DNA of 64,000 nt from Stenotrophomonas maltophilia (GTDB taxonomy: Bacteria > Pseudomonadota > Gammaproteobacteria > Xanthomonadales > Xanthomonadaceae): the NCBI RefSeq assembly GCF_002799245.1, contig NZ_NEQV01000005.1:310001-374000 (forward strand), written 5' to 3'. Under the pieces are notes generated by a model that searched no databases, was not told where the DNA came from, and worked only from the letters and a program-made list of their open reading frames with translations. The first letter of the stretch is position 1. Each line of letters opens with the position of its first letter. A program made the position numbers and the translations under genes. Shown in pieces: positions 1,052-11,791 of this stretch.

Positions 1052-1205
1052 AGGGAGCAGCGCACCGGGACTGCTGCCTAACCTCATTACCAGCGGTCAT
1101 GTGGGTGGCCGGATATGACGGTTGGGTGACGTGATCCCGCCTGTCGCGGCAGGTGAACAGGCCCTTGAATGGAAGCGTGTTTCCGGCCCACCCCCACGAG
1201 CCCCC

Positions 1206-3782
1206 ATGCCTGCCGCCCACGCCCCTGTCCTGAGCACGCTTGCTGTCCTGATCGCCGCTGTTCTCGCCGCATCGCCCAGCCATGCGGCTGAAGCCGATGC
1301 AGACCCCACCACCACAGCGGCGGCGGCCAATGTGGCAGCGTCCACGCTGGACGCGGTGGTTGTTACCGGTTCGCGCACCAGCACGCGCACGGTGAAGAAC
1401 AGCTCCACGCCCATCGATGTGATCTCCGCCGAGGACCTTGCCGCCACCGGGCAGGGCAATCTGCTGGAAGCCCTGCAGCGCAGCCTGCCGTCGCTGAGCC
1501 AGATCGGCGGCTACCAGAGCGATCAGGAGAGCCTGATCCGCGGCTACCAGCTGCGCAACCTGTCGCCGGGCTACACGCTGGTGCTGGTGAACGGCAAACG
1601 CCGCAATGCCAGCGCCTATGTGAGCGGAGCGAATGGCGGTGGCTTTCCCGGCCATGCCTGGGCCGACCTGGCGCTGATTCCTGTCTCGGCCATCGACCAC
1701 GTGGAAGTACTGCGTGATGGCGCGTCGGCCATCTATGGTTCGGATGCGATCACCGGCGTGGTCAACGTGATCCTGAAATCGCAGGCGCACGGTGGCGATC
1801 TGTCGGTGGAGAGCGGGCAGAGCATTGATGGCGATGGCTCGCGTACCAGCGTACGCGCCAATGTCGGCCTGCCGTGGGGCGAGGATGGCTTCGTCAACCT
1901 GTCCGGCGAGACCACCCGCCAGCATCATGCGATCCGCACCCGGCGCTATATCGACGGCTACCTGAGCTATCCGGCGGTGGACGGCAGCGGCAACCGGGTG
2001 GGGCTGCGCCCGAACAACCGGCTGCCGGTGGGAGCGTTGCCGAACCCGGCCGAGGCCGATCGCGATGCCGAGGCCAACACCATCCTCAGCTCGCCGTCGT
2101 ATGCGTTGAAGGCCTTCGCGGTGAATGTGGGCCATGGCCTTGGCGAAAGCGCGCAGTTCTACGCCAATGCCACCGCCAGCGATCGCACCGCGCAGGCGAT
2201 CCAGAACTTCCGCCTGCCGGCCACCATCTTCACCACGTACAAGGCCCCCGGCGTGCTGAGCGTGTTTCCCGATGGCTTCCTGCCGGTGTTGGAAACCAAG
2301 GAGAAGCAGTACACCGGTACTGCAGGTGTGAAAGGCCAGCTGGCAGGCTGGGACTACGACGCCAGCCTGACCGGAAACCGCAGCACGGTACGCACCTACA
2401 CCCGCAACTCGGTGAACTACTCGCTGCCGTACCCCGGTTCGCCCACCGACTTCTACGATGGCAAGCTGGATTACCAGCAGGGCATCGCCAACCTGGATCT
2501 GCGCCGCGGCTTCGAGGTGGCGGCCTTTGCCTCGCCGCTGGAAGTGAGCGCAGGTGCCGAGTACCAGCATGAACAGTACGAGCGTGGGGCGGGGCAGTGG
2601 GAGTCGTACACCGGCTTCGGTGCGGCGGCCTTCGTCGGCTACTCGACCGCCGACGCGGTGAAGGCGACCCGCAACAGCAAGGCGGTCTATGTGGGCGCGG
2701 CCACCAACGTCACCTCGCGCTGGTATCTGGATGCGGCCGCGCGTTGGGAAGACCACTCCGACTTCGGCAGTGTCTCCACCGGCCGCCTGACCACGCGCTT
2801 CGACTTCACCGACGCGCTGGGCGTACGCGCCACGGTCAGCAACGGTTTCCATGCGCCCAGCCTGGGCGCGCAGTTCTACCAGGCAACCGGCAGCTGCCCG
2901 TGCGGCACCACGCTGGTGGCGCAGGTGTCGTCGCCGGCGGCGATCGCGTTGGGTGCCACGGCGCTGAAGCCGGAAAAGGCCACCAACTACAGCCTTGGCG
3001 TGACCTGGGATCCGAGCCCGGCCTTCCATCTGGCCTTGGATGCGTATCAGATCGACATCCGCGGCCAGCTCGGCCAGTCCAGCCAGATCGGCTACAACGC
3101 GCAGGATCCGGCGCGCGTCACCGACAACAGCGGCACGGTGCTGAGTGCGGCGCAGAAGAACACCATCGATGCCCTGCTGGGTTCTGCCGGCATCAGCATC
3201 CTGCCGGGCGATGCGTTCTACGCCAGCTATTTCACCAACGTGGGCAACACCCGCACGCGCGGCGTCGAGCTGACCCTGGAAGCGAACCAGGACACTGCGT
3301 GGGGCAAGCTGCGCTGGAGCTACGCGGCCAACGTCGGCCGCACCACCATCCAGAAAGTGAGCGACATTCCGGCGGCGCTGCAGGGGCTGCCGAACATCAA
3401 CCTGCTGACCAGGACCAGCGAGTACGCGCTGCGCTTCCGCACGCCCAGCTACACCCAGGTGGCCGGGCTGGGCTGGCAGAACGGGCGCTGGCGTTCGAAT
3501 GTCGATTTCACGTACTACGGCCCGATCAAGCGCCTGAACAACGGCGTGGAGTACAAGCAGCCACCGGTGCTGGTGACCAACCTGTCCGGCGCGGTGGAAC
3601 TGGGCGCTGGCTGGAGCGCGGCGCTGGGCATCAACAACGTGTTCGACAAGCGCACCCGCAAGGTGCCCGAGTACGCACGCAGTGCCACCGATGTGGCCAG
3701 CATCGAGACCACCTGGGACAGCGGTGACGTGCTGGGCAACGTAGGCGCGTACTGGTATGGGCGGGTCAGTTACCGGTTCTGA
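1206..3782 (+). CDS. TonB-dependent outer-membrane receptor
   Basis: The protein has 858 residues. ATG 1206 is chosen because it begins a classical signal peptide (basic start, then LSTLAVLIAAVLAASPSHA). A TTG at 1122 in the same frame would place 28 extra residues before it. The plug domain starts near VVVTGSRTS and includes a LLEALQRSLPSLSQ segment. The barrel ends in VSYRF with the terminal Phe expected for outer-membrane insertion. Such receptors import scarce substrates using TonB energy. No Shine-Dalgarno sequence is obvious. It is the first gene of a collinear set of oxidoreductase and ABC transport genes, so it may bring the same organosulfur substrate across the outer membrane (inference). 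A CPC cysteine motif lies in the barrel (around 2900). Confidence 0.9.
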   Translation: MPAAHAPVLSTLAVLIAAVLAASPSHAAEADADPTTTAAAANVAASTLDAVVVTGSRTSTRTVKNSSTPIDVISAEDLAATGQGNLLEALQRSLPSLSQIGGYQSDQESLIRGYQLRNLSPGYTLVLVNGKRRNASAYVSGANGGGFPGHAWADLALIPVSAIDHVEVLRDGASAIYGSDAITGVVNVILKSQAHGGDLSVESGQSIDGDGSRTSVRANVGLPWGEDGFVNLSGETTRQHHAIRTRRYIDGYLSYPAVDGSGNRVGLRPNNRLPVGALPNPAEADRDAEANTILSSPSYALKAFAVNVGHGLGESAQFYANATASDRTAQAIQNFRLPATIFTTYKAPGVLSVFPDGFLPVLETKEKQYTGTAGVKGQLAGWDYDASLTGNRSTVRTYTRNSVNYSLPYPGSPTDFYDGKLDYQQGIANLDLRRGFEVAAFASPLEVSAGAEYQHEQYERGAGQWESYTGFGAAAFVGYSTADAVKATRNSKAVYVGAATNVTSRWYLDAAARWEDHSDFGSVSTGRLTTRFDFTDALGVRATVSNGFHAPSLGAQFYQATGSCPCGTTLVAQVSSPAAIALGATALKPEKATNYSLGVTWDPSPAFHLALDAYQIDIRGQLGQSSQIGYNAQDPARVTDNSGTVLSAAQKNTIDALLGSAGISILPGDAFYASYFTNVGNTRTRGVELTLEANQDTAWGKLRWSYAANVGRTTIQKVSDIPAALQGLPNINLLTRTSEYALRFRTPSYTQVAGLGWQNGRWRSNVDFTYYGPIKRLNNGVEYKQPPVLVTNLSGAVELGAGWSAALGINNVFDKRTRKVPEYARSATDVASIETTWDSGDVLGNVGAYWYGRVSYRF

Positions 3783-3827: not shown

Positions 3828-4409
3828 ATGTCTTCTGCATTGAAGGTGGTTGCATTGGTGGGGTCGCCGACCAGCTCGGCGACATCCCGTACGCTGCTGC
3901 TGGTGCGGCATCTGCTGGCATCGTTGCAGCAGCGGGTGCATGCCAGCGTGGACCTGGTGGAGCTGGCGCCGATTGCGCGCTCGCTGGGCCAGTCACTGTC
4001 GCGCGCGGAGGTGGAACCGGCGGTGGAACAGGTGCTGCAGACCATCGAGGCGGCCGAACTGCTGGTGGTGGCTGCGCCGGTGCACCGTGGATCGTATCCG
4101 GGGCTGTTCAAGCACCTGATCGACTTCATCGAGCTCGATGCGCTGGTGGATACGCCAGTGCTGCTGGCGGCGACCGGAGGCAGCGAGCGCCATGCGCTGG
4201 TCATCGATCACCAGTTGCGGCCGTTGTTCAGTTTCCTGCAGGCGCACACGCTGCCGATCGGGGTGTATGCCACCCCGGCCGACTTCGACGGCGAGCACAT
4301 CAACAGTGCGGCGTTGCAGGCGCGCATCGCGCTGGCGAGCGAACGTGCGGCCGGGCACCTGGCTGCGCAGGGGCGGGCGACAGCGGCGCCGCTGCGACGT
4401 ATTGCCTGA
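3828..4409 (+). CDS. NADPH-dependent FMN reductase (SsuE/MsuE-like)
   Basis: 193 residues, the usual length for the family. The flavodoxin-like fold is indicated by the N-terminal phosphate loop GSPTSSATSRT and by the flavin/loop segment APVHRGSYPGLFKHLIDF near residues 85-102. Family members reduce FMN with NADPH and hand the reduced flavin to two-component monooxygenases. The two monooxygenases at 4943 and 5939 are the natural customers. A good ribosome site (GGGAG) precedes the ATG by about 7 bases. Assignment to the reductase class is firm. MsuE versus SsuE cannot be separated by eye. Confidence 0.88.
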   Translation: MSSALKVVALVGSPTSSATSRTLLLVRHLLASLQQRVHASVDLVELAPIARSLGQSLSRAEVEPAVEQVLQTIEAAELLVVAAPVHRGSYPGLFKHLIDFIELDALVDTPVLLAATGGSERHALVIDHQLRPLFSFLQAHTLPIGVYATPADFDGEHINSAALQARIALASERAAGHLAAQGRATAAPLRRIA

Positions 4410-4565: not shown

Positions 4566-4928
4566 GTGAGCCTGGACGCAACCGATAAACCCATCCTGTT
4601 CCTGCTCGACCGCGAGTTCGAGGACGGCCAGATTCCCGGTCAACGCTTCTTCTGCCGGCACAGCCTGTTACTGGAAGGCGCGCTGTCGAGCATCGACGGC
4701 CTTGATGCGCAGCTGGACGTACGTCGCATCGGTTTCGCACGGCCGCGCCGCGAGGTGATCGCCGAGATCGGCGAACAGGACCAGTCGCTGCCGAAGCTGG
4801 TGCTGCCGCAAGGCGTGCACAGCGAACTGGCCAGTGGCGCGCACCAGGACCGCCAGTACATCTCCGGTGCCGAGCCGATCCTGGCCGCACTGAACGGATT
4901 GCTGGGCATTCCCGTGGCCCACCCTTGA
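4566..4928 (+). CDS. DUF3088 small protein, thioredoxin-like fold suspected
   Basis: 120 residues from a GTG start with a GAGGA site about 9 bases upstream. The sequence opens with PILFLLDREFED and then RFFCRHSLLLEG (residues ~28-39), followed by a hydrophobic, proline-containing core (QSLPKLVLPQG). I recognise this as DUF3088, which has no assigned function. The single Cys in a position like the first Cys of a glutaredoxin/GST N-terminus, followed by a helix, suggests a redox or thiol-binding role. It sits 14 bases before the first monooxygenase gene. In the B. subtilis counterpart operon a small glutaredoxin-like protein (CmoI/YtnI) occupies a comparable role. That equivalence is inference. 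The 156 bases before it could hold a second promoter. Confidence 0.75.
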   Translation: MSLDATDKPILFLLDREFEDGQIPGQRFFCRHSLLLEGALSSIDGLDAQLDVRRIGFARPRREVIAEIGEQDQSLPKLVLPQGVHSELASGAHQDRQYISGAEPILAALNGLLGIPVAHP

Positions 4929-4942
4929 GCGAGGACGCGACC

Positions 4943-5920
4943 ATGAGCTATCAGATCAGCGTGCTGGACAAGAGCCCGGTGGCCGAGGGCGCCTCGCCGG
5001 AACAGGCCCTGCGCAACAGCCTGCAGTTGGCGCAGCGCGCCGAGCAGCTGGGCTACCACCGTTACTGGTTTGCCGAACACCACGCGGCACCGGCCCTGGC
5101 CAGCCCCGCGCCGGAAGTGCTGGCGGCCTGGGTGCTGGCGCAGACCCGGCGCATCCGCATCGGCAGCGGTGGGGTGATGCTGCGCCACTACGCGCCATAC
5201 AAGGTGGCGGAGAACTTCAACCTGCTGGCGGCGTTGGCGCCAGGGCGCGTGGATCTGGGCGTGGGCAAGGCGCCCGGCGGCCTGCCGGCGTCGACCGCCG
5301 CGCTGGCGGCAGGGCGCCCGGCGTTCGCCGACTTCGACCAGCAACTGCGCGATCTGGAGGGCTATCTGTCCGGTGCCGGCACCGAGGTGCAGGCGCGGCC
5401 GGTTCCGCAGCAGGCGCCGGAGCGCTTCCTGCTCGGTGCCAGCCCGCAGAGCGCGCGGCAGGCGGCCGAGCTGGGCTGGCGCTTTGTCTACGCCGCGCAC
5501 TTCGATGGCGACCCGAAGCACATTGAGGCCGCATTCGACGCCTACCGCAGCGTCTCTGCACAGCCCCCGTTGCTGGCCACGGTGGCCTTTGCCGCACCGA
5601 CCGCTGAAGCGGCGGCGCGCCATATCGGCGCACTGCGGGTCTACAAGCTGCACCTTGGCCCCGGGCAGGCGGTGAACCTGCCCAGCGCCGAGGCGGCGGC
5701 CGAGTACGCACGCCAGGTAGGCGTGGCCGATTTCCGCATCGAGGAGACACGCCCGAGCGTGTTGTCCGGTGATGCGCAGCATGTGCGCGGCGAACTGGAC
5801 GCGCTGCATCGGCGTTTCGGCGTGGGCGAATTCATCCTCGATGCGCCGGTGGCCGACCTCGACGCACGCCTGACATCCCTTGAACTGCTGTCGCCCGCGC
5901 CGCGCGCGGCGGTGGCCTGA
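4943..5920 (+). CDS. LLM-class flavin-dependent oxidoreductase (bacterial luciferase family, CmoO/YtmO-like)
   Basis: 325 residues. ATG 4943 is preferred over an in-frame TTG at 4925 because GAGCGAGGA sits at normal spacing before it. The start (YQISVLDKSPVAEG) and the early segment YHRYWFAEHH are typical of the MsnO8/YtmO branch of luciferase-like monooxygenases. IRIGSGGVMLRHYAP and GRVDLGVGKAPGG follow. These enzymes use reduced FMN and oxygen. The neighbouring FMN reductase and the second monooxygenase suggest a two-component oxidation of an S-substituted cysteine derivative. Substrate is inferred from gene order only. Confidence 0.87.
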   Translation: MSYQISVLDKSPVAEGASPEQALRNSLQLAQRAEQLGYHRYWFAEHHAAPALASPAPEVLAAWVLAQTRRIRIGSGGVMLRHYAPYKVAENFNLLAALAPGRVDLGVGKAPGGLPASTAALAAGRPAFADFDQQLRDLEGYLSGAGTEVQARPVPQQAPERFLLGASPQSARQAAELGWRFVYAAHFDGDPKHIEAAFDAYRSVSAQPPLLATVAFAAPTAEAAARHIGALRVYKLHLGPGQAVNLPSAEAAAEYARQVGVADFRIEETRPSVLSGDAQHVRGELDALHRRFGVGEFILDAPVADLDARLTSLELLSPAPRAAVA

Positions 5921-5938: not shown

Positions 5939-7282
5939 ATGAGCACGACCCCGCGCCACATTCCGTTCGGCATCATGCTGCAGGGTCCCGGCAGCCACAT
6001 GCATGCCTGGAAGCATCCGTCCAATCCGGCCGATGCCAGCGTCAACCTGCAGTTCTACATCGACATCGCGCGCACCGCCGAGGACAACGGCATCGCCTTC
6101 GGTTTCGTGGCCGACGGCCTCTACATCAACGAAAAATCGATCCCGCATTTCCTCAATCGTTTCGAGCCGATCTCGCTGCTTTCGGCGCTGGCCACGGCAA
6201 CGAAGAAGATCGGTCTGGCTGGCACGCTGTCGACTTCCTACAGCGACCCGTTCACCGTGGCCCGGCAGTTCGCCTCGCTGGATCTGCTCAGCGGTGGCCG
6301 TGCCGGCTGGAACGTGGTGACCTCGCCGCTGGAAGGTTCGGGCCGCAACTATGGCCGGCCGCACCCGGAGCACGCGCTGCGCTACCAGATCGCCGACGAG
6401 TACCTGGAGGTGGTGCAGGGCCTGTGGGATTCATGGGATGACGGTGCCTTCGTTCGCGAGCGCGACAGTGGCACCTTCTTCGCGCCGGAGACGTTCCGCC
6501 GGCTCGACCACAAGGGCCGCTTCTTCCAGGTGGAAGGGCCGCTCAACATCCAGCGCTCACCGCAGGGGCAGCCGGTGATCTTCCAGGCCGGTTCGTCCGA
6601 CGATGGCATCGCGCTGGCCGGCAAGTATGCCGATGCGGTGTTCACCCATTCGCCGTCGCTGGAAGAAACCCGCGCGTTCACCCAGAAGGTGAAGAACTCG
6701 GCGATCGCGCAGGGTCGCAGCGGCAGCGACGTGAAGATCTTCCCGGGCATCGGCCCCATCGTGGGACGTACCGCGGAGGAGGCCGAAGCCAAGTACCAGG
6801 CGATTGCCACGCTGGCCACGCTGGAGGATGCGCTGGCCTATCTCGGCCGCTTCTTCGACCACCACGATTTCAGCCAGTACGATCCGGATGCCCCTTTCCC
6901 GGAGCTGGGTGAGATCGGCAGCAACTCGTTCCGTTCCACCACCGATCGCATCAAGCAGGAGGCGCGTGAGAGGGGCCTGAGCCTGCGCCAGGTGGCATTG
7001 GAGGCGGTCAGCCCGCGACCGAACTTCATCGGGACGGCGGAACATGTGGCCGATGAGCTGATCCGCTGGTTCGATGCCGGCGCCAGCGATGGCTTCATTC
7101 TCGGTTTCGCGGCACAGCGCGAAGGGCTGGACGATTTCGTGACCCAGGTGCTGCCGATCCTGCAGGCACGCGGCTACCACCAGCGCGAGCTGGAAGGGCA
7201 GACCCTGCGCGAGCACCTGGGCCTGCCGTACAAGGCCAGCCGCCATTCGACCGACGCCGAACCGGCGCGGAAGGCGGGATAA
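5939..7282 (+). CDS. NtaA/SnaA/DszA-family flavin-dependent monooxygenase (CmoJ/YtnJ-like)
   Basis: 447 residues, the normal family length. Recognisable blocks are the N-terminal strand IPFGIMLQGPG, a central GRAGWNVVTSP (residues ~120-130), YADAVFTHSP and PNFIGTAEHVADEL near the C-terminus. These match the nitrilotriacetate/dibenzothiophene-sulfone monooxygenase group that accepts FMNH2 from a separate reductase. In B. subtilis the relative CmoJ oxidises N-acetyl S-alkyl-cysteines to release cysteine sulfur. A GGAG site precedes the ATG. Eighteen bases separate it from the upstream LLM gene and four bases from the downstream amidohydrolase gene, so the genes are clearly co-transcribed. Confidence 0.88.
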   Translation: MSTTPRHIPFGIMLQGPGSHMHAWKHPSNPADASVNLQFYIDIARTAEDNGIAFGFVADGLYINEKSIPHFLNRFEPISLLSALATATKKIGLAGTLSTSYSDPFTVARQFASLDLLSGGRAGWNVVTSPLEGSGRNYGRPHPEHALRYQIADEYLEVVQGLWDSWDDGAFVRERDSGTFFAPETFRRLDHKGRFFQVEGPLNIQRSPQGQPVIFQAGSSDDGIALAGKYADAVFTHSPSLEETRAFTQKVKNSAIAQGRSGSDVKIFPGIGPIVGRTAEEAEAKYQAIATLATLEDALAYLGRFFDHHDFSQYDPDAPFPELGEIGSNSFRSTTDRIKQEARERGLSLRQVALEAVSPRPNFIGTAEHVADELIRWFDAGASDGFILGFAAQREGLDDFVTQVLPILQARGYHQRELEGQTLREHLGLPYKASRHSTDAEPARKAG

Positions 7283-7286
7283 GGCG

Positions 7287-8507
7287 ATGAGCGGAGAATC
7301 TTCGGTAGCGCCGGGTGTGGCCCGGCGCAGTCCCGCGCCCCTCGGCGTGCTGCCCGAAATCGCGTCACGGGCCGAGGCCGCCATTGCGATCCGCCACGAC
7401 CTGCACAGGCATCCGGAGCTGGCCTTCCAGGAGCATCGCACCAGCGCCCGTGTGGCCGAGCTGCTGCAGCAGTGGGGCTATGCGGTCACCACCGGCCTTG
7501 GTGGCACCGGCGTGGTCGGCACGCTGCAGCGCGGGCAGGGCCGCCGCCGCCTCGGCCTGCGTGCCGATATGGATGCATTGCCGATCCACGAGGACTCCGG
7601 CCTGGCCTATGCCAGCCAGACCGACGGGCTGATGCATGCCTGTGGCCACGACGGGCATACCGCCATCCTGCTGTCCGCTGCGCATTACCTGGCCCATCAC
7701 GGCGATATCGACGGCACCCTGCAGCTGGTGTTCCAGCCTGCGGAGGAAACGGGTTCGGGTGCATCGAAGATGATTGCCGACGGCCTGTTCGAGCGTTTCC
7801 CGGTGGACGCGATCTACGGGTTGCACAACTGGCCGGGCGTGCCGGTCGGTCACTTCGGCTTTGTCGATGGCCCGGCGATGGCATCGGTGGACTGGGCGCG
7901 GCTGAAGGTGATCGGCAAGGGCGGACATGGTGCCGAGCCGCAAGGGAGTGTCGACCCGATCCTGGCGGCGGCGCACATCGTCACCGCACTGCAGAGCGTG
8001 GTGTCACGCAATGTCGATCCGCGGCAGATGGGTGTGGTGACCGTCGGTTCGATCCACGGCGGGCAGGCCGCCAACGTGATTCCGGACGTGGTCGAGTTGA
8101 AACTGACCGTGCGCGCCTACCTGCCCGAGGTGCGCGACACCCTGCGGCGCCGGGTTGCCGGGATTGCCGAGCAGACCGCTGCCGCGTTCGGCGCACGCGC
8201 CGAGATCGAGTTCCCGCGCGGCTTCCCCAGCGTGATCAATCACGCGCAGCAGACCGCCTACATCCGCGAGGTAGCAGTAAAGGGCTTCGGCACCGGACAG
8301 GTGGTGCCCGGGTTCGCGCCGCGCACCGCCAGCGAGGATTTCGCCTTCCTGTTGCAGGCACGGCCGGGCAGCTTCGTGTTCGTCGGCAACGGCGACAGTG
8401 CACCGCTGCACAGCCCGCGCTACGTGTTCAACGATGCTGCCATTGCACCCGCCGCCAGCCTGTGGGCGCGGCTGGCCGAAGACTATCTGGTGAAGGATGC
8501 GACATGA
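7287..8507 (+). CDS. M20-family amidohydrolase (N-acyl-amino-acid deacylase, SndA-like)
   Basis: 406 residues. M20D hallmarks are present: HRHPELAFQE near residue 35, GLRADMDALPI, HACGHDGHTA (metal ligands), FQPAEET, YGLHNWPG and, near the C-terminus, ASEDFAFL. Enzymes of this group remove acetyl, benzoyl or other acyl groups from amino acids or indole conjugates. Placed between a monooxygenase and an N-acetyltransferase gene, deacetylation of an N-acetylated cysteine derivative is the natural reading (inference from the SnaA/SndA pair of B. subtilis). The stop overlaps the next start (ATGA at 8504). Confidence 0.9.
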   Translation: MSGESSVAPGVARRSPAPLGVLPEIASRAEAAIAIRHDLHRHPELAFQEHRTSARVAELLQQWGYAVTTGLGGTGVVGTLQRGQGRRRLGLRADMDALPIHEDSGLAYASQTDGLMHACGHDGHTAILLSAAHYLAHHGDIDGTLQLVFQPAEETGSGASKMIADGLFERFPVDAIYGLHNWPGVPVGHFGFVDGPAMASVDWARLKVIGKGGHGAEPQGSVDPILAAAHIVTALQSVVSRNVDPRQMGVVTVGSIHGGQAANVIPDVVELKLTVRAYLPEVRDTLRRRVAGIAEQTAAAFGARAEIEFPRGFPSVINHAQQTAYIREVAVKGFGTGQVVPGFAPRTASEDFAFLLQARPGSFVFVGNGDSAPLHSPRYVFNDAAIAPAASLWARLAEDYLVKDAT

Positions 8508-9055
8508 GCAGCGACGAACGCTTCCTCTATACCTCGGTGGATGATCCGCTGGCGCGGCCGCTGTTCGATGGCCTGGAACAGGAGTACGACAGCCGCTACG
8601 CAGACGTGCGCCGACGCATCGGCGGCAGCGCCCGCGAGGAGCTGCAGCGCTATCCGGCGCAGGCCTTTGCTGCCCCGGTAGGTGCCTTCGTGCTGCTGCT
8701 GCGCGACGGTGTGGCGATTTCCGGCGGCGCGTTCATGCCACATCGCGATCCGGACACTGCCGAGTTCAAGCGCATCTGGACGTTGCCGGGGCTGCGCCGG
8801 CAGGGCATCGCGCGGCGCGTGCTGCAGGAACTGGAAGAGCAGGCGGCGCGCCAGGGCTACCTGCGTGTGTTCCTGACGACGGGCTTCCGCCAGCCTGAGG
8901 CGGTCGGCCTGTACCTCAGCCACGGCTATACCGCGCTGTTCGATCTGGATGCCGATCCGGAGGCCATTGCGCATCTGCCGTTCGAGAAGCGCCTGCGGGC
9001 GGCGGCGCCCGTCATCACGCCTGCGCAGCCACAGCTGCAGGGAGCCCACGCATGA
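8504..9055 (+). CDS. GNAT-family N-acetyltransferase (SnaA-like candidate)
   Basis: 183 residues. The acetyl-CoA loop is visible as LPGLRRQGIARRVLQELEEQA (~residues 92-112, Q/RxxGxA/G type), followed by YLRVFLTTGFRQPEAVGLYLSHGY, the usual beta5-alpha4 region. The GNAT call is firm. A role in acetylating S-substituted cysteine before oxidation is inferred from the neighbouring deacetylase and monooxygenases. Both ends overlap neighbours by ATGA (8504 and 9052), which indicates translational coupling. Confidence 0.85.
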   Translation: MSSDERFLYTSVDDPLARPLFDGLEQEYDSRYADVRRRIGGSAREELQRYPAQAFAAPVGAFVLLLRDGVAISGGAFMPHRDPDTAEFKRIWTLPGLRRQGIARRVLQELEEQAARQGYLRVFLTTGFRQPEAVGLYLSHGYTALFDLDADPEAIAHLPFEKRLRAAAPVITPAQPQLQGAHA

Positions 9056-10797
9056 GCACGCCGTCGACCGCACTGGAGGGCATCGCTGCACGGCCGGCGC
9101 CAGCACCGACGTTGAAGATCGTGCCTGCGCGGCACCCGTTGCAGGTGGTCGGTACCGTATTGGCGCTGGCACTGATCCTGATCGCACTGCAATCGGTGCT
9201 GGGCAACCCGCGCTGGGGGTGGAGTACCTTCGCCGAGTGGTTCTTCGCGCGCCCGGTGCTGGAAGGCCTGGGTCGCACGTTGCTGCTGACCGCGCTCGGT
9301 ACCGGCCTTGGTTTCGCGCTGGGTACCTTGCTTGCACTGGCGCGTGTGTCCGGTTCGCCACTGCTGTCGGCGGTGTCGTGGGGCTATGTATGGTTGTTCC
9401 GTTCGATCCCGCTGCTGGTGCTGTTGTTGCTGCTGAACAATCTGGGTTATCTGTACAGCACCATCGAGCTGGGGGTGCCGTTCACCGGCATCAGCCTGTT
9501 CTCGTACCCGACCACGCAGCTGATCGGCGTGTTCACTGCCGCGGTGCTGGGGCTGACCCTGAACCAGGCCGCGTTCTCGGCCGAGGTGATCCGCGGTGGC
9601 ATTCTTTCGGTCGACCACGGCCAGTACGAGGCCGCGGCCGCACTCGGCCTGCCGCGTGGCCGCCAGGTGCGCCGCATCATCCTGCCGCAGGCGATGCGCT
9701 CGATCCTGCCGGCGGCGTTCAACGATGTGATCGGCCTGGCGAAGAGTACCTCGGTGGTCTACGTGCTGGCGCTGCCGGAGCTGTTCTACACCGTGCAGGT
9801 GATCTACCGCCGCAACCTGGAGGTGGTGCCGCTGCTGATGGTGGCCACGGTCTGGTACCTGGTGATCCTGACCGTGCTGTCTCTGCTGCAGCGGCGCGTG
9901 GAGCAGCGCTTTGCGCGCGGCCAGTTGCAGCGCGAGCGCTCGGTGTCGCGGGTCTCGCAGCCGCTGCGTGGACCCGCAGATGCAGCGCCGCGCGTGGCCA
10001 GCCGTCCGCGCATTGCGGCCCCGGTCGAGGCAGGCGAGGGGGCGGCGGTGTCGCTGCATGGCGTGGGCAAGGTGTTCGGTGAACAGCCGGTGCTGGAAGA
10101 CGTGAACCTGGACCTTCGCGCCGGCAGCGTGACCGTGCTGATCGGCCCGTCCGGCGCCGGCAAGTCCACGCTGCTGCGGCTGATCAACCACCTGGAGCGC
10201 GCCGACAGCGGCTACGTGACCGTTGCCGGCCAGCTGATCGGCTACCGTCGCGACGGTGACACCCTGTTCGAGCTGCCGGAGCGCGAGATCCGCCGCCGCC
10301 GTGCCGAAGTGGGCATGGTGTTCCAGGGCTTCAACCTGTTCCCGCATATGACCGCGCTGGAGAACATCATCGAGGCGCCGATCGCGGTGCGCGGCATGCC
10401 ACGCGCTCAGGCCGAGCAGCAGGCGCGGACGCTGCTGGAACGGGTCGGCCTGGCCGGAAAGGCCGATGCCTTCCCGCGCCAGCTGTCCGGTGGCCAGCAG
10501 CAGCGCATCGCGATTGCCCGCGCACTGGCGCTGCAGCCGAAGGTTCTGCTGTTCGACGAGCCGACTTCGGCGCTGGACCCGGAGCTGGTGACCGAAGTGC
10601 TCAGCGTGATCGAAGAGCTGGCCAGCTCCGGCACCACGCTGGTGATCGTCACCCATGAACTGGGCTTCGCCCGCCGCGTGGCCGACCACGTAGTGATGAT
10701 GGACCAGGGACGGGTGATCGAGCAGGGCACGCCCGAGGCCCTGTTCGAGCGCCCGCGCCAGCAACGCACTGCCGATTTCCTGGCCAAGACCCTGTAA
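9052..10797 (+). CDS. Fused amino-acid ABC transporter permease-ATPase
   Basis: 581 residues in one frame with two complete domains. Residues ~30-280 form a HisM/GlnP-type permease with several membrane segments and the EAA loop (YEAAAALGLPRGRQVRRIILPQ). Residues ~320-581 form a GlnQ-type ATPase with Walker A (GPSGAGKST), Q-loop (VFQGFNLFPHMT), signature LSGGQQQRIAIARAL, Walker B (VLLFDEPTSALDPE) and switch His (VTHEL). The subunits are normally separate genes. One fused half-transporter would dimerise. The binding protein follows 16 bases downstream. Cystine/S-substituted-cysteine import (TcyLMN-like) fits the context, while the family alone says only polar amino acid. Confidence 0.92.
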   Translation: MSTPSTALEGIAARPAPAPTLKIVPARHPLQVVGTVLALALILIALQSVLGNPRWGWSTFAEWFFARPVLEGLGRTLLLTALGTGLGFALGTLLALARVSGSPLLSAVSWGYVWLFRSIPLLVLLLLLNNLGYLYSTIELGVPFTGISLFSYPTTQLIGVFTAAVLGLTLNQAAFSAEVIRGGILSVDHGQYEAAAALGLPRGRQVRRIILPQAMRSILPAAFNDVIGLAKSTSVVYVLALPELFYTVQVIYRRNLEVVPLLMVATVWYLVILTVLSLLQRRVEQRFARGQLQRERSVSRVSQPLRGPADAAPRVASRPRIAAPVEAGEGAAVSLHGVGKVFGEQPVLEDVNLDLRAGSVTVLIGPSGAGKSTLLRLINHLERADSGYVTVAGQLIGYRRDGDTLFELPEREIRRRRAEVGMVFQGFNLFPHMTALENIIEAPIAVRGMPRAQAEQQARTLLERVGLAGKADAFPRQLSGGQQQRIAIARALALQPKVLLFDEPTSALDPELVTEVLSVIEELASSGTTLVIVTHELGFARRVADHVVMMDQGRVIEQGTPEALFERPRQQRTADFLAKTL

Positions 10798-10813: not shown

Positions 10814-11791
10814 ATGAGCCCTGCAGCACCGCGTCGAATCTCCCGCAGCACCCTGGTGATCTCAGGCGTTCTGGTCGTCGGTATCGCCGGCATCGTCTAT
10901 TCCCGCGTACGGCAAGCACCGGATGCCGGCGTCGTGGCTGCGACCAGCCTGGCGGGCGCGAACACGGCCGTGCTGAAAGGTACGTTCGATCCGAAGGCAC
11001 AGGCGTTGATTCCCGCCAGCTACCGCTTCGTCACCCCCGGTGCGTTCACGGTAGCCACCCATCCGGGGCAGCTGCCGCTGGCCGACTACGGCGCCGACAG
11101 CAAGGACGTTGTGGGCATCGAGCCCGACATCGCGCGGCTGATTGCCGACGGGCTGGGCCTGAAGCTGGTGATCGTACCGGTGGCATGGGCCGACTGGCCG
11201 CTGGGGCTGGAGTCGGGCAAGTACGATGCCGTGCTGTCGAACGTGACGGTCACCGAGGAGCGCAAGAAGAAGTTCGATTTCTCGAGCTACCGTTACGACC
11301 TGCTCGGCATCTACACGCGCAGCGATGGGCCGATCCAGAAGATTGAAAAGCCGGCCGATGTCGCCGGGCTGAAGGTGGTGGTCGGTGCCAGCACCAACCA
11401 GGACCAGATTCTGCGGCAGTGGGACCAGCAGAACATTGCGGCCGGCTTGAAGCCGGTGCAGTACCAGTACTTCGACGACGCCGTGGTGGGCCGGTTGGCG
11501 GTGATCACCGGCCGCGCCGATGTCTCGTTCGAGCCCAATGCCACCGGCGCGTACTCGGCACGCGACGGCAAGGTGCGGCGTGTAGGCCTGTTCCCCGGTG
11601 GCTGGCCGAACGCCGCGGCGATTTCGGTGACCACGCGCAAGGGCAGTGGCCTGGCCGACGCGGTGACGCAGGCGTTGAACACCCAGATCGGCAGCGGCAC
11701 CTATGCGCAGGCGTTGAAGCGGTGGAATGTGGCCGAGGAAGCGGTGCCGCAGTCGCAGACCAACCCGCCGGGGTTGCCCACGCTGCAATGA
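10814..11791 (+). CDS. Polar amino-acid ABC transporter substrate-binding protein
   Basis: 325 residues, SBP family 3. The N-terminus (RRISRSTLVISGVLVVGIAGIVYS) is a single hydrophobic segment without a lipobox Cys, so the protein is either secreted or membrane-anchored. Typical blocks are FTVATHPGQLPLADY, VGIEPDIARLIADGLG, VAWADWPLGLESGKYDAVLSN and [20 protein letters not shown] site precedes the ATG. As last gene of the 1206-11791 set it should deliver the substrate to the fused permease-ATPase. The protein lacks Cys altogether. Ligand unknown; S-substituted cysteine is a contextual guess. Confidence 0.9.
   Translation: MSPAAPRRISRSTLVISGVLVVGIAGIVYSRVRQAPDAGVVAATSLAGANTAVLKGTFDPKAQALIPASYRFVTPGAFTVATHPGQLPLADYGADSKDVVGIEPDIARLIADGLGLKLVIVPVAWADWPLGLESGKYDAVLSNVTVTEERKKKFDFSSYRYDLLGIYTRSDGPIQKIEKPADVAGLKVVVGASTNQDQILRQWDQQNIAAGLKPVQYQYFDDAVVGRLAVITGRADVSFEPNATGAYSARDGKVRRVGLFPGGWPNAAAISVTTRKGSGLADAVTQALNTQIGSGTYAQALKRWNVAEEAVPQSQTNPPGLPTLQ

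Follow-up and report, generated by a model that had tools for sequence, protein, structure and literature searches.

The closest described counterpart of the operon considered here is the Cmo system of Bacillus subtilis, in which the proteins YtnJ and YtnI correspond to CmoJ and CmoI. In this pathway, CmoO forms a sulfoxide, from which CmoJ releases N-acetylcysteine sulfenic acid by cleavage; reduction and deacetylation come next (PMC10863075). Reduction of the CmoJ product precedes deacetylation, and the text drawn on from that source names no enzyme for the reduction (PMC10863075). YtnI has been annotated as a putative glutaredoxin (PMC10780176), and YtnL, YhaA and ScmP are N-acetylcysteine deacetylases (PMC12757645). 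The YxeK/ScmK pathway for S-(2-succino)cysteine, encoded by the scm operon, likewise combines acetylation, oxidative cleavage and deacetylation (PMC12757645). A 2010 publication assigned DUF3088, the family of the small protein examined here, to the thioredoxin-like clan, its top matches being glutaredoxin 2 (3ir4) and GST_N (PMC3091736); the idea of a thioredoxin fold for DUF3088 is therefore not new. A computational database lists the family under electron transport, glutathione metabolism and Fe–S biogenesis (PMC12828279). Searches of the open-licence PMC literature found no measured activity of any DUF3088 protein and no paper placing the family in an S-alkylcysteine pathway.

The window, a 64,000-nucleotide stretch of Stenotrophomonas maltophilia contig NZ_NEQV01000005.1, contains an operon with the order FMN reductase, DUF3088, MsnO8, NtaA, M20, GNAT, ABC and SBP, all on the + strand and with small or no gaps between genes (Table 1). 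DUF3088 begins 156 bp past the MsuE-type FMN reductase and ends 14 bp short of the MsnO8 gene, in line with the location between an FMN reductase and the first monooxygenase given in the original prediction. The reading frame starts with GTG and has a GAGGA sequence 7 nt upstream of the start. Compared with six relatives from the genus from codon 8 onward, it has a dN/dS of 0.03–0.14, with differences mostly at codon position 3, which places it under selection. DUF3088 is a real gene.

Table 1. Features of the operon and its upstream neighbour, in window coordinates
Feature	Positions	Strand	Match or comment
TonB-dependent outer-membrane receptor	1122..3782	+	Pfam Plug, TonB_dep_Rec; upstream, same direction as operon
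NAD(P)H:FMN reductase, MsuE type	3828..4409	+	TIGR03566 221 bits (cut-off 212.5); PF03358
DUF3088 protein, proposed glutathione-dependent one-Cys reductase	4566..4928	+	120 aa; PF11287 102.4 bits (cut-off 26.4), profile positions 1–111 of 112
C30 codon, RFFCRHS motif, just ahead of predicted first helix	4653..4655	+	Invariant 64/64; helix 34–41 in model
P76 codon, in QSLP	4791..4793	+	Invariant; thioredoxin-fold cis-proline position, cis state inferred
MsnO8-family FMN-dependent monooxygenase	4943..5920	+	ATG at 4943; TIGR03558 332.7 bits
NtaA/DmoA-family FMN monooxygenase, CmoJ-like	5939..7282	+	TIGR03860 511.9 bits, above cut-off
M20 amidohydrolase, predicted N-acetylcysteine deacetylase	7287..8507	+	Best PDB match YxeP (1ysj), 258.8 bits
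GNAT N-acetyltransferase, predicted S-alkylcysteine acetylase	8504..9055	+	PF00583
Fused amino-acid ABC permease and ATPase	9052..10797	+	Best NCBIfam match TcyN, below its cut-off
Family 3 extracellular solute-binding protein of ABC system	10814..11791	+	PF00497

Among solved structures, the window NtaA protein matches nitrilotriacetate monooxygenase (3sdo) at 627 bits and, next, B. subtilis YtnJ (1tvl) at 523 bits in phmmer searches. The first PDB match of the M20 protein is B. subtilis YxeP. Taken with the Cmo chemistry, these matches indicate that the operon most likely serves S-alkylcysteine salvage, with a predicted substrate. At the gene level, it contains the CmoJ-type C–S monooxygenase of a Cmo cluster, with a TIGR03860 score above the cut-off alongside the match to YtnJ. 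The gene families of the second flavin monooxygenase, the acetylase and the deacetylase are also present, their substrates being predicted. The NtaA/DmoA-family enzyme is predicted to perform C–S cleavage, the MsnO8 protein is CmoO-like by position with a predicted role in thioether S-oxygenation, and the MsuE-type enzyme would supply reduced FMN.

The window operon and the B. subtilis Cmo system share a CmoJ-like NtaA protein, two flavin monooxygenases, an M20 deacetylase, a GNAT enzyme and an amino-acid ABC importer, as well as one small protein whose thioredoxin fold is annotated for YtnI and predicted for DUF3088. The window differs in having its own MsuE-type FMN reductase, an upstream TonB receptor and a fused ABC permease/ATPase. 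Its small protein is DUF3088, encoded ahead of both monooxygenases, whereas that of B. subtilis lies between them. The original prediction had likened the position of DUF3088 to that of cmoI, and this match is rejected because the positions differ. A Glutaredoxin Pfam match is absent from all eight operon ORFs scanned. The scm operon resembles the window in its acetylation, cleavage and deacetylation logic and in YxeP being the nearest PDB relative of the window M20 enzyme; set against the description of the scm pathway rather than the YxeK sequence, the window cluster adds the MsnO8 monooxygenase and DUF3088.

The gene set recurs within the genus. All 25 genus-level loci are labelled with the upstream TonB receptor, MsnO8, NtaA, M20, ABC and SBP, while the FMN reductase is labelled at 24 of the 25, GNAT at 22 and DUF3088 at 23, the remaining two DUF3088 genes having been found by tblastn. 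In two of these loci (L080:8661 and L083:8874), an additional gene with weak similarity to MsnO8 separates DUF3088 from the FMN reductase. The former comes from a record titled Bacillus subtilis subsp. subtilis strain SK7B5 (JAHREJ010000022.1) that carries the Stenotrophomonas operon; it has a single NtaA-type match in its 4.3 Mb, sharing 88% identity with the window NtaA, and the genome is apparently mislabelled.

The window protein has exactly one Cys, C30, within RFFCRHSLLLEG, as originally read. This residue is invariant in the window protein and its 25 genus-level relatives (26/26) and among 28 aligned DUF3088 members (28/28). It is also invariant in a 64-member alignment, comprising the window protein, 55 of 69 trimmed rows (near-copies omitted) and eight plasmid proteins, in which the rows were trimmed around a Cys and the Cys count is less independent than in the 28-member alignment. 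P60, R61, Q73, P76 and L109 are invariant in both alignments, and G38 is invariant among the 28 members only. C30 fits a catalytic-position Cys ahead of the first core helix, a helix taken from a model of middling confidence, and P76 aligns with the Val-Pro of thioredoxin 2l6c in a profile search (E 0.034). The suggestion of a glutaredoxin-like Cys placement is borne out by the invariant C30 before the predicted helix and the invariant P76 in QSLP. The window motif is C-R-H-S, with no CxxC, a pattern present in 26 of 38 tree rows outside the two branches of the family that are linked to NtaA-type monooxygenases (described below). A dithiol thioredoxin or glutaredoxin is ruled out for the window protein, which has C-R-H-S and a single Cys. 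C30 is not specific to salvage, because DUF3088 proteins outside these two branches keep the same Cys in other contexts.

Models and profile searches agree weakly with a thioredoxin-like fold for DUF3088 and, taken with the 2010 assignment, support it, short of proof. Searches of viral contigs (with three other DUF3088 queries) and of phages returned no relatives, so the alignments used for structure prediction were shallow (84–99% identity). Two AlphaFold (AF2) jobs gave best models with pLDDT values of 68.8 and 69.5 and a pTM of 0.65; the other models of the same jobs were poorer, with pLDDT down to 36.7 and 45.0. In the best model of each job, the elements follow the thioredoxin-like order, with additional strands. 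Structures ranked near the models include Omega GSTs, DHARs, CLIC1, SspA, MglA, KaiB, thioredoxins and the GSH-dependent disulfide oxidoreductase 3gx0. The best Foldseek E value is 0.23 and the best VIA Z score 3.9 (4.2 Å over 85 residues), and neither model has a structural match at E 0.001 or Z 5. KaiB and HisRS-type structures rank as high as GSTs, and HisRS, ProRS and phosphatase rows stand among the GST rows at similar Z; Z alone therefore cannot settle the fold.

Profile searches point in the same direction as the models, also weakly. With profile A1, all 16 matches to PDB sequences at E ≤10 are named as thioredoxins or as thiol:disulfide or disulfide oxidoreductases, the best being a thioredoxin at E 0.034. 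A wider family profile gives 17 matches, 16 of the thiol oxidoreductase kind and one "uncharacterized". Neither family profile yields an individually significant PDB sequence match. No significant thioredoxin-clan Pfam match occurs among the 64 members; the best are GST_N_3 (E 0.024) and Thioredoxin_9 (E 0.23), the unrelated Succ_CoA_lig reaches E 0.0085 in the same scan, and Glutaredoxin is not listed. The window protein itself matches only DUF3088 above the Pfam cut-off, with no Glutaredoxin or GST_N match. DUF3088 thus resembles the glutaredoxin 2/GST_N type of the thioredoxin-like clan in its invariant Cys before the first helix, its invariant Pro before a core strand and the element order of its models. 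It differs in lacking a significant match to any Pfam family of the clan, in the absence of CxxC from the window protein, and in the invariant PR and QxxP, which are its own.

The structural comparison also bears on a GST-like enzyme for a substrate or by-product, which would open glutathione S-conjugates or handle the aldehyde released by CmoJ-type cleavage, with C30 acting as in Cys-type GSTs. GST N-terminal domains make up most of the top VIA-aligned structures, the 2010 assignment had GST_N among its top Pfam matches (PMC3091736), and a GST-domain gene adjoins DUF3088 at one locus (L013). That locus lies outside the two linked branches, however, and at 120 aa the window protein is too short to hold a C-terminal GST domain; we consider an enzyme of this kind very unlikely.

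The distribution of DUF3088 was surveyed in 398 Pseudomonadota genomes, the least biased of the samples, and the family is present in 29 of them. A locus was considered linked if an ORF within 10 kb scored at least 100 bits against the window NtaA; flanks were shorter, at contig ends, for four loci (L037, L116, L122 and L128). In the phylum sample, 11 of 30 loci (29 fetched plus the window) have an NtaA-type gene within 10 kb, or 7 of 26 without the window's genus. In a second set, enriched by being centred on or near genomes known as linked, 17 of 43 loci are linked. The chance expectation is 0.67 linked loci (208 TIGR03860 genes in 69 genomes), on the assumption that each genome has a single DUF3088 locus and that NtaA genes are evenly distributed. 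The 72 loci fetched in the two sets (29 and 43) include L078 and L085, both counted as linked and later confirmed as such, and weak matches G764, G1239 and G1246 lie outside the fetched set.

In a 72-row tree, two branches hold all 30 linked rows, with 30 of 34 rows linked inside them and 0 of 38 elsewhere. The tree omits L023, whose copy is broken, L119, in which no intact ORF was found, and L098, which is intact, C-W-H-C, unlinked and outside the two branches, and was left out for having YPR in place of RPR. Of the eight rows in the window branch (support 100/96), six belong to the genus and two to family f51; every one of them is linked and reads C-R-H-S. The second branch (support 99/98) has 26 rows, 21 of them from family f19, of which 22 are linked; its motif is mostly CP[HDG][GS], with CxxC retained in L018, L019, L022, L101 and L121. 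At L018, NtaA and acyl-CoA-dehydrogenase-like genes adjoin DUF3088. Families f9, f19 and f51 are, at a guess, enterics, Burkholderiaceae and rhizobia. HMM and hhalign scans of 1657 neighbouring ORFs gave only weak matches.

A tie to monooxygenases is thus a property of these two branches and not of the whole DUF3088 family. Association with NtaA-type monooxygenases, part of the original prediction, holds strongly for the window's branch and not for the family at large, where 19 of 30 loci lie away from such genes; as a family-wide marker of these enzymes, DUF3088 is rejected, with only 11 of 30 phylum-sample loci linked. As far as our searches reach, the branch-specific linkage is new. Elsewhere in the family, a common non-monooxygenase context is seen in family f48 (L010–L012, L014 and L023), where L010 has an amine oxidase, a RibD_C protein and an aldo/keto reductase. 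A separate FYCGDS branch from family f19 (L026, L111, L115, L116, L118, L120 and L122) has no NtaA-type gene found within 10 kb, and all seven loci have an ABC gene matching the window ABC protein nearby.

Plasmid-borne examples extend this pattern. Eight plasmid records, picked for variety rather than at random, were opened among 44 with a relative, and six of the eight have annotated LLM monooxygenases around DUF3088. A plasmid of Mesorhizobium sp. 131-2-5 carries DUF3088, MsnO8, LLM, M20, GNAT, ABC and SBP genes in the same order as the window. Other gene sets are found in Burkholderia pyrrocinia, Agrobacterium vitis VAT03-9, Mesorhizobium sp. 113-3-3, Variovorax paradoxus and Rhizobium sp. 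C104, and four of these five (L133 and L135–L137) contain acyl-CoA-dehydrogenase-like genes. No annotated LLM monooxygenase surrounds DUF3088 on the plasmids of R. tropici CIAT 899 and A. vitis F2/5; on the first of these (L131), arsK and a Qat anti-phage system are close to the gene. In an 81-row tree, the Mesorhizobium sp. 131-2-5 protein falls in the window branch (9 rows, SH-aLRT 97), the five other linked proteins in the second branch (31 rows, SH-aLRT 98) and the two unlinked proteins outside both. Tree placement therefore predicted the neighbourhood in 8 of 8 cases. The acyl-CoA-dehydrogenase-like fold includes the S-oxygenase MsuC (PMC8234197), and oxidative C–S cleavage would be the common denominator of the second-branch and S-alkylcysteine clusters. 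Linkage to two types of S-oxygenation, MsnO8 and acyl-CoA-dehydrogenase-like, with NtaA shared between them, is consistent with an enzyme that handles oxidised sulfur products.

The same linkage fits equally well a redox helper of the monooxygenase system, which is the main rival explanation. Such a protein would keep a Cys of the flavin enzyme, reductase or deacetylase reduced, or would remove peroxide formed by leaking reduced FMN. Because DUF3088 accompanies NtaA-type enzymes with different predicted substrates, in S-alkylcysteine-type and in acyl-CoA-dehydrogenase-like clusters, a helper of the enzyme class is as consistent with the data as one acting on the product. Absence of DUF3088 from many clusters with the same enzymes counts against this role, and so does the single Cys of the window protein, since a dithiol thioredoxin cycle would require two; we consider this role unlikely.

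Presence and absence patterns define how far the pathway depends on DUF3088. Across 61 genomes of the genus, all 33 with DUF3088 carry a CmoJ-like gene (88–100% identity, on the same contig and about 1 kb from DUF3088), and none of the 28 without it does, although one of these has two paralogs at 35–36%. This co-occurrence indicates that the operon was gained or lost as a unit, from which a need for DUF3088 does not follow. In the phylum sample, 26 genomes have a CmoJ-like gene of at least 50% identity, and DUF3088 lies beside it in eight; of the other 18, 17 have no DUF3088 at all and one has it elsewhere. All CmoJ-like genomes of families f9 (11/11) and f7 (4/4) lack DUF3088. Among 20 CmoJ-like loci without DUF3088 fetched from these 18 genomes, 13 are otherwise complete, with MsnO8, NtaA, M20 and GNAT. 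Ten unlabelled small genes selected near CmoJ-like loci include no thioredoxin-fold Pfam match.

These complete clusters speak against the notion of DUF3088 as the "missing" partner of the pathway, and an essential role is rejected on the same 13 of 20 loci. The sulfur-reduction step does not need DUF3088, since all 11 f9 genomes with a CmoJ-like gene lack it, and the 18 of 26 genomes without it alongside, together with the 13 complete loci, make it accessory. Overall, the original prediction is partly supported. Absence from beside the CmoJ-like gene in these 18 genomes would also suit a thioredoxin-fold protein without redox turnover, whether an adaptor or regulator like SspA or KaiB or a passenger kept by operon linkage, and SspA, MglA, CLIC1 and KaiB are among the nearest-ranked structures. 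An invariant C30 in 64 of 64 members across contexts would be unusual for a non-catalytic adaptor, and purifying selection and linkage in two separate branches also argue against this explanation, which is quite improbable.

The preferred reading, to which we assign a probability of roughly 0.45, sees DUF3088 as an accessory one-Cys reductase that depends on GSH, has a glutaredoxin/Omega-GST-like fold and acts on the CmoJ-type sulfenic acid or its mixed disulfide. It builds on the gene and its operon, the invariant Cys and Pro, the branch linkage and the presence of a gene for glutathione synthetase in the same genome (GshB match, 449 bits). The CmoO and CmoJ chemistry and the sulfenic acid product come from papers on B. 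subtilis, and we infer that glutathione is used, on which substrate and in which direction the reaction would run, as well as any firm assignment of the fold. In the proposed sequence, the operon would import S-alkylcysteines, which the GNAT enzyme would N-acetylate. The MsnO8/CmoO-like enzyme would then oxidise the thioether, and the NtaA/CmoJ-like enzyme would cleave the C–S bond to give N-acetylcysteine sulfenic acid. C30 would most likely attack this sulfenic acid, or the mixed disulfide it forms with glutathione; the resulting protein mixed disulfide would be resolved by glutathione, freeing N-acetylcysteine for deacetylation to cysteine by the M20 enzyme. In clusters lacking DUF3088, housekeeping thiols or glutaredoxins presumably take over the reduction.

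A broader and distinctly more tentative proposal, which we regard as somewhat doubtful, is that DUF3088 holds an unrecognised class of one-Cys reductases for sulfenic acids from flavin-dependent C–S monooxygenases, recruited in two branches. The first branch would correspond to S-alkylcysteine clusters in Stenotrophomonas and Mesorhizobium-type rhizobia, and the second to broad organosulfur clusters, including those of Burkholderia, Variovorax, Rhizobium and Agrobacterium plasmids. As for the preferred reading, the sulfenic acid released by CmoJ is reactive, and a family that keeps to such monooxygenases in two of its branches is a direct candidate for reducing it; this role would give DUF3088 its first testable function. 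If the preferred reading is right, Cmo-type salvage would also operate in Stenotrophomonas and Mesorhizobium, where a different small thiol protein would take the place of CmoI.
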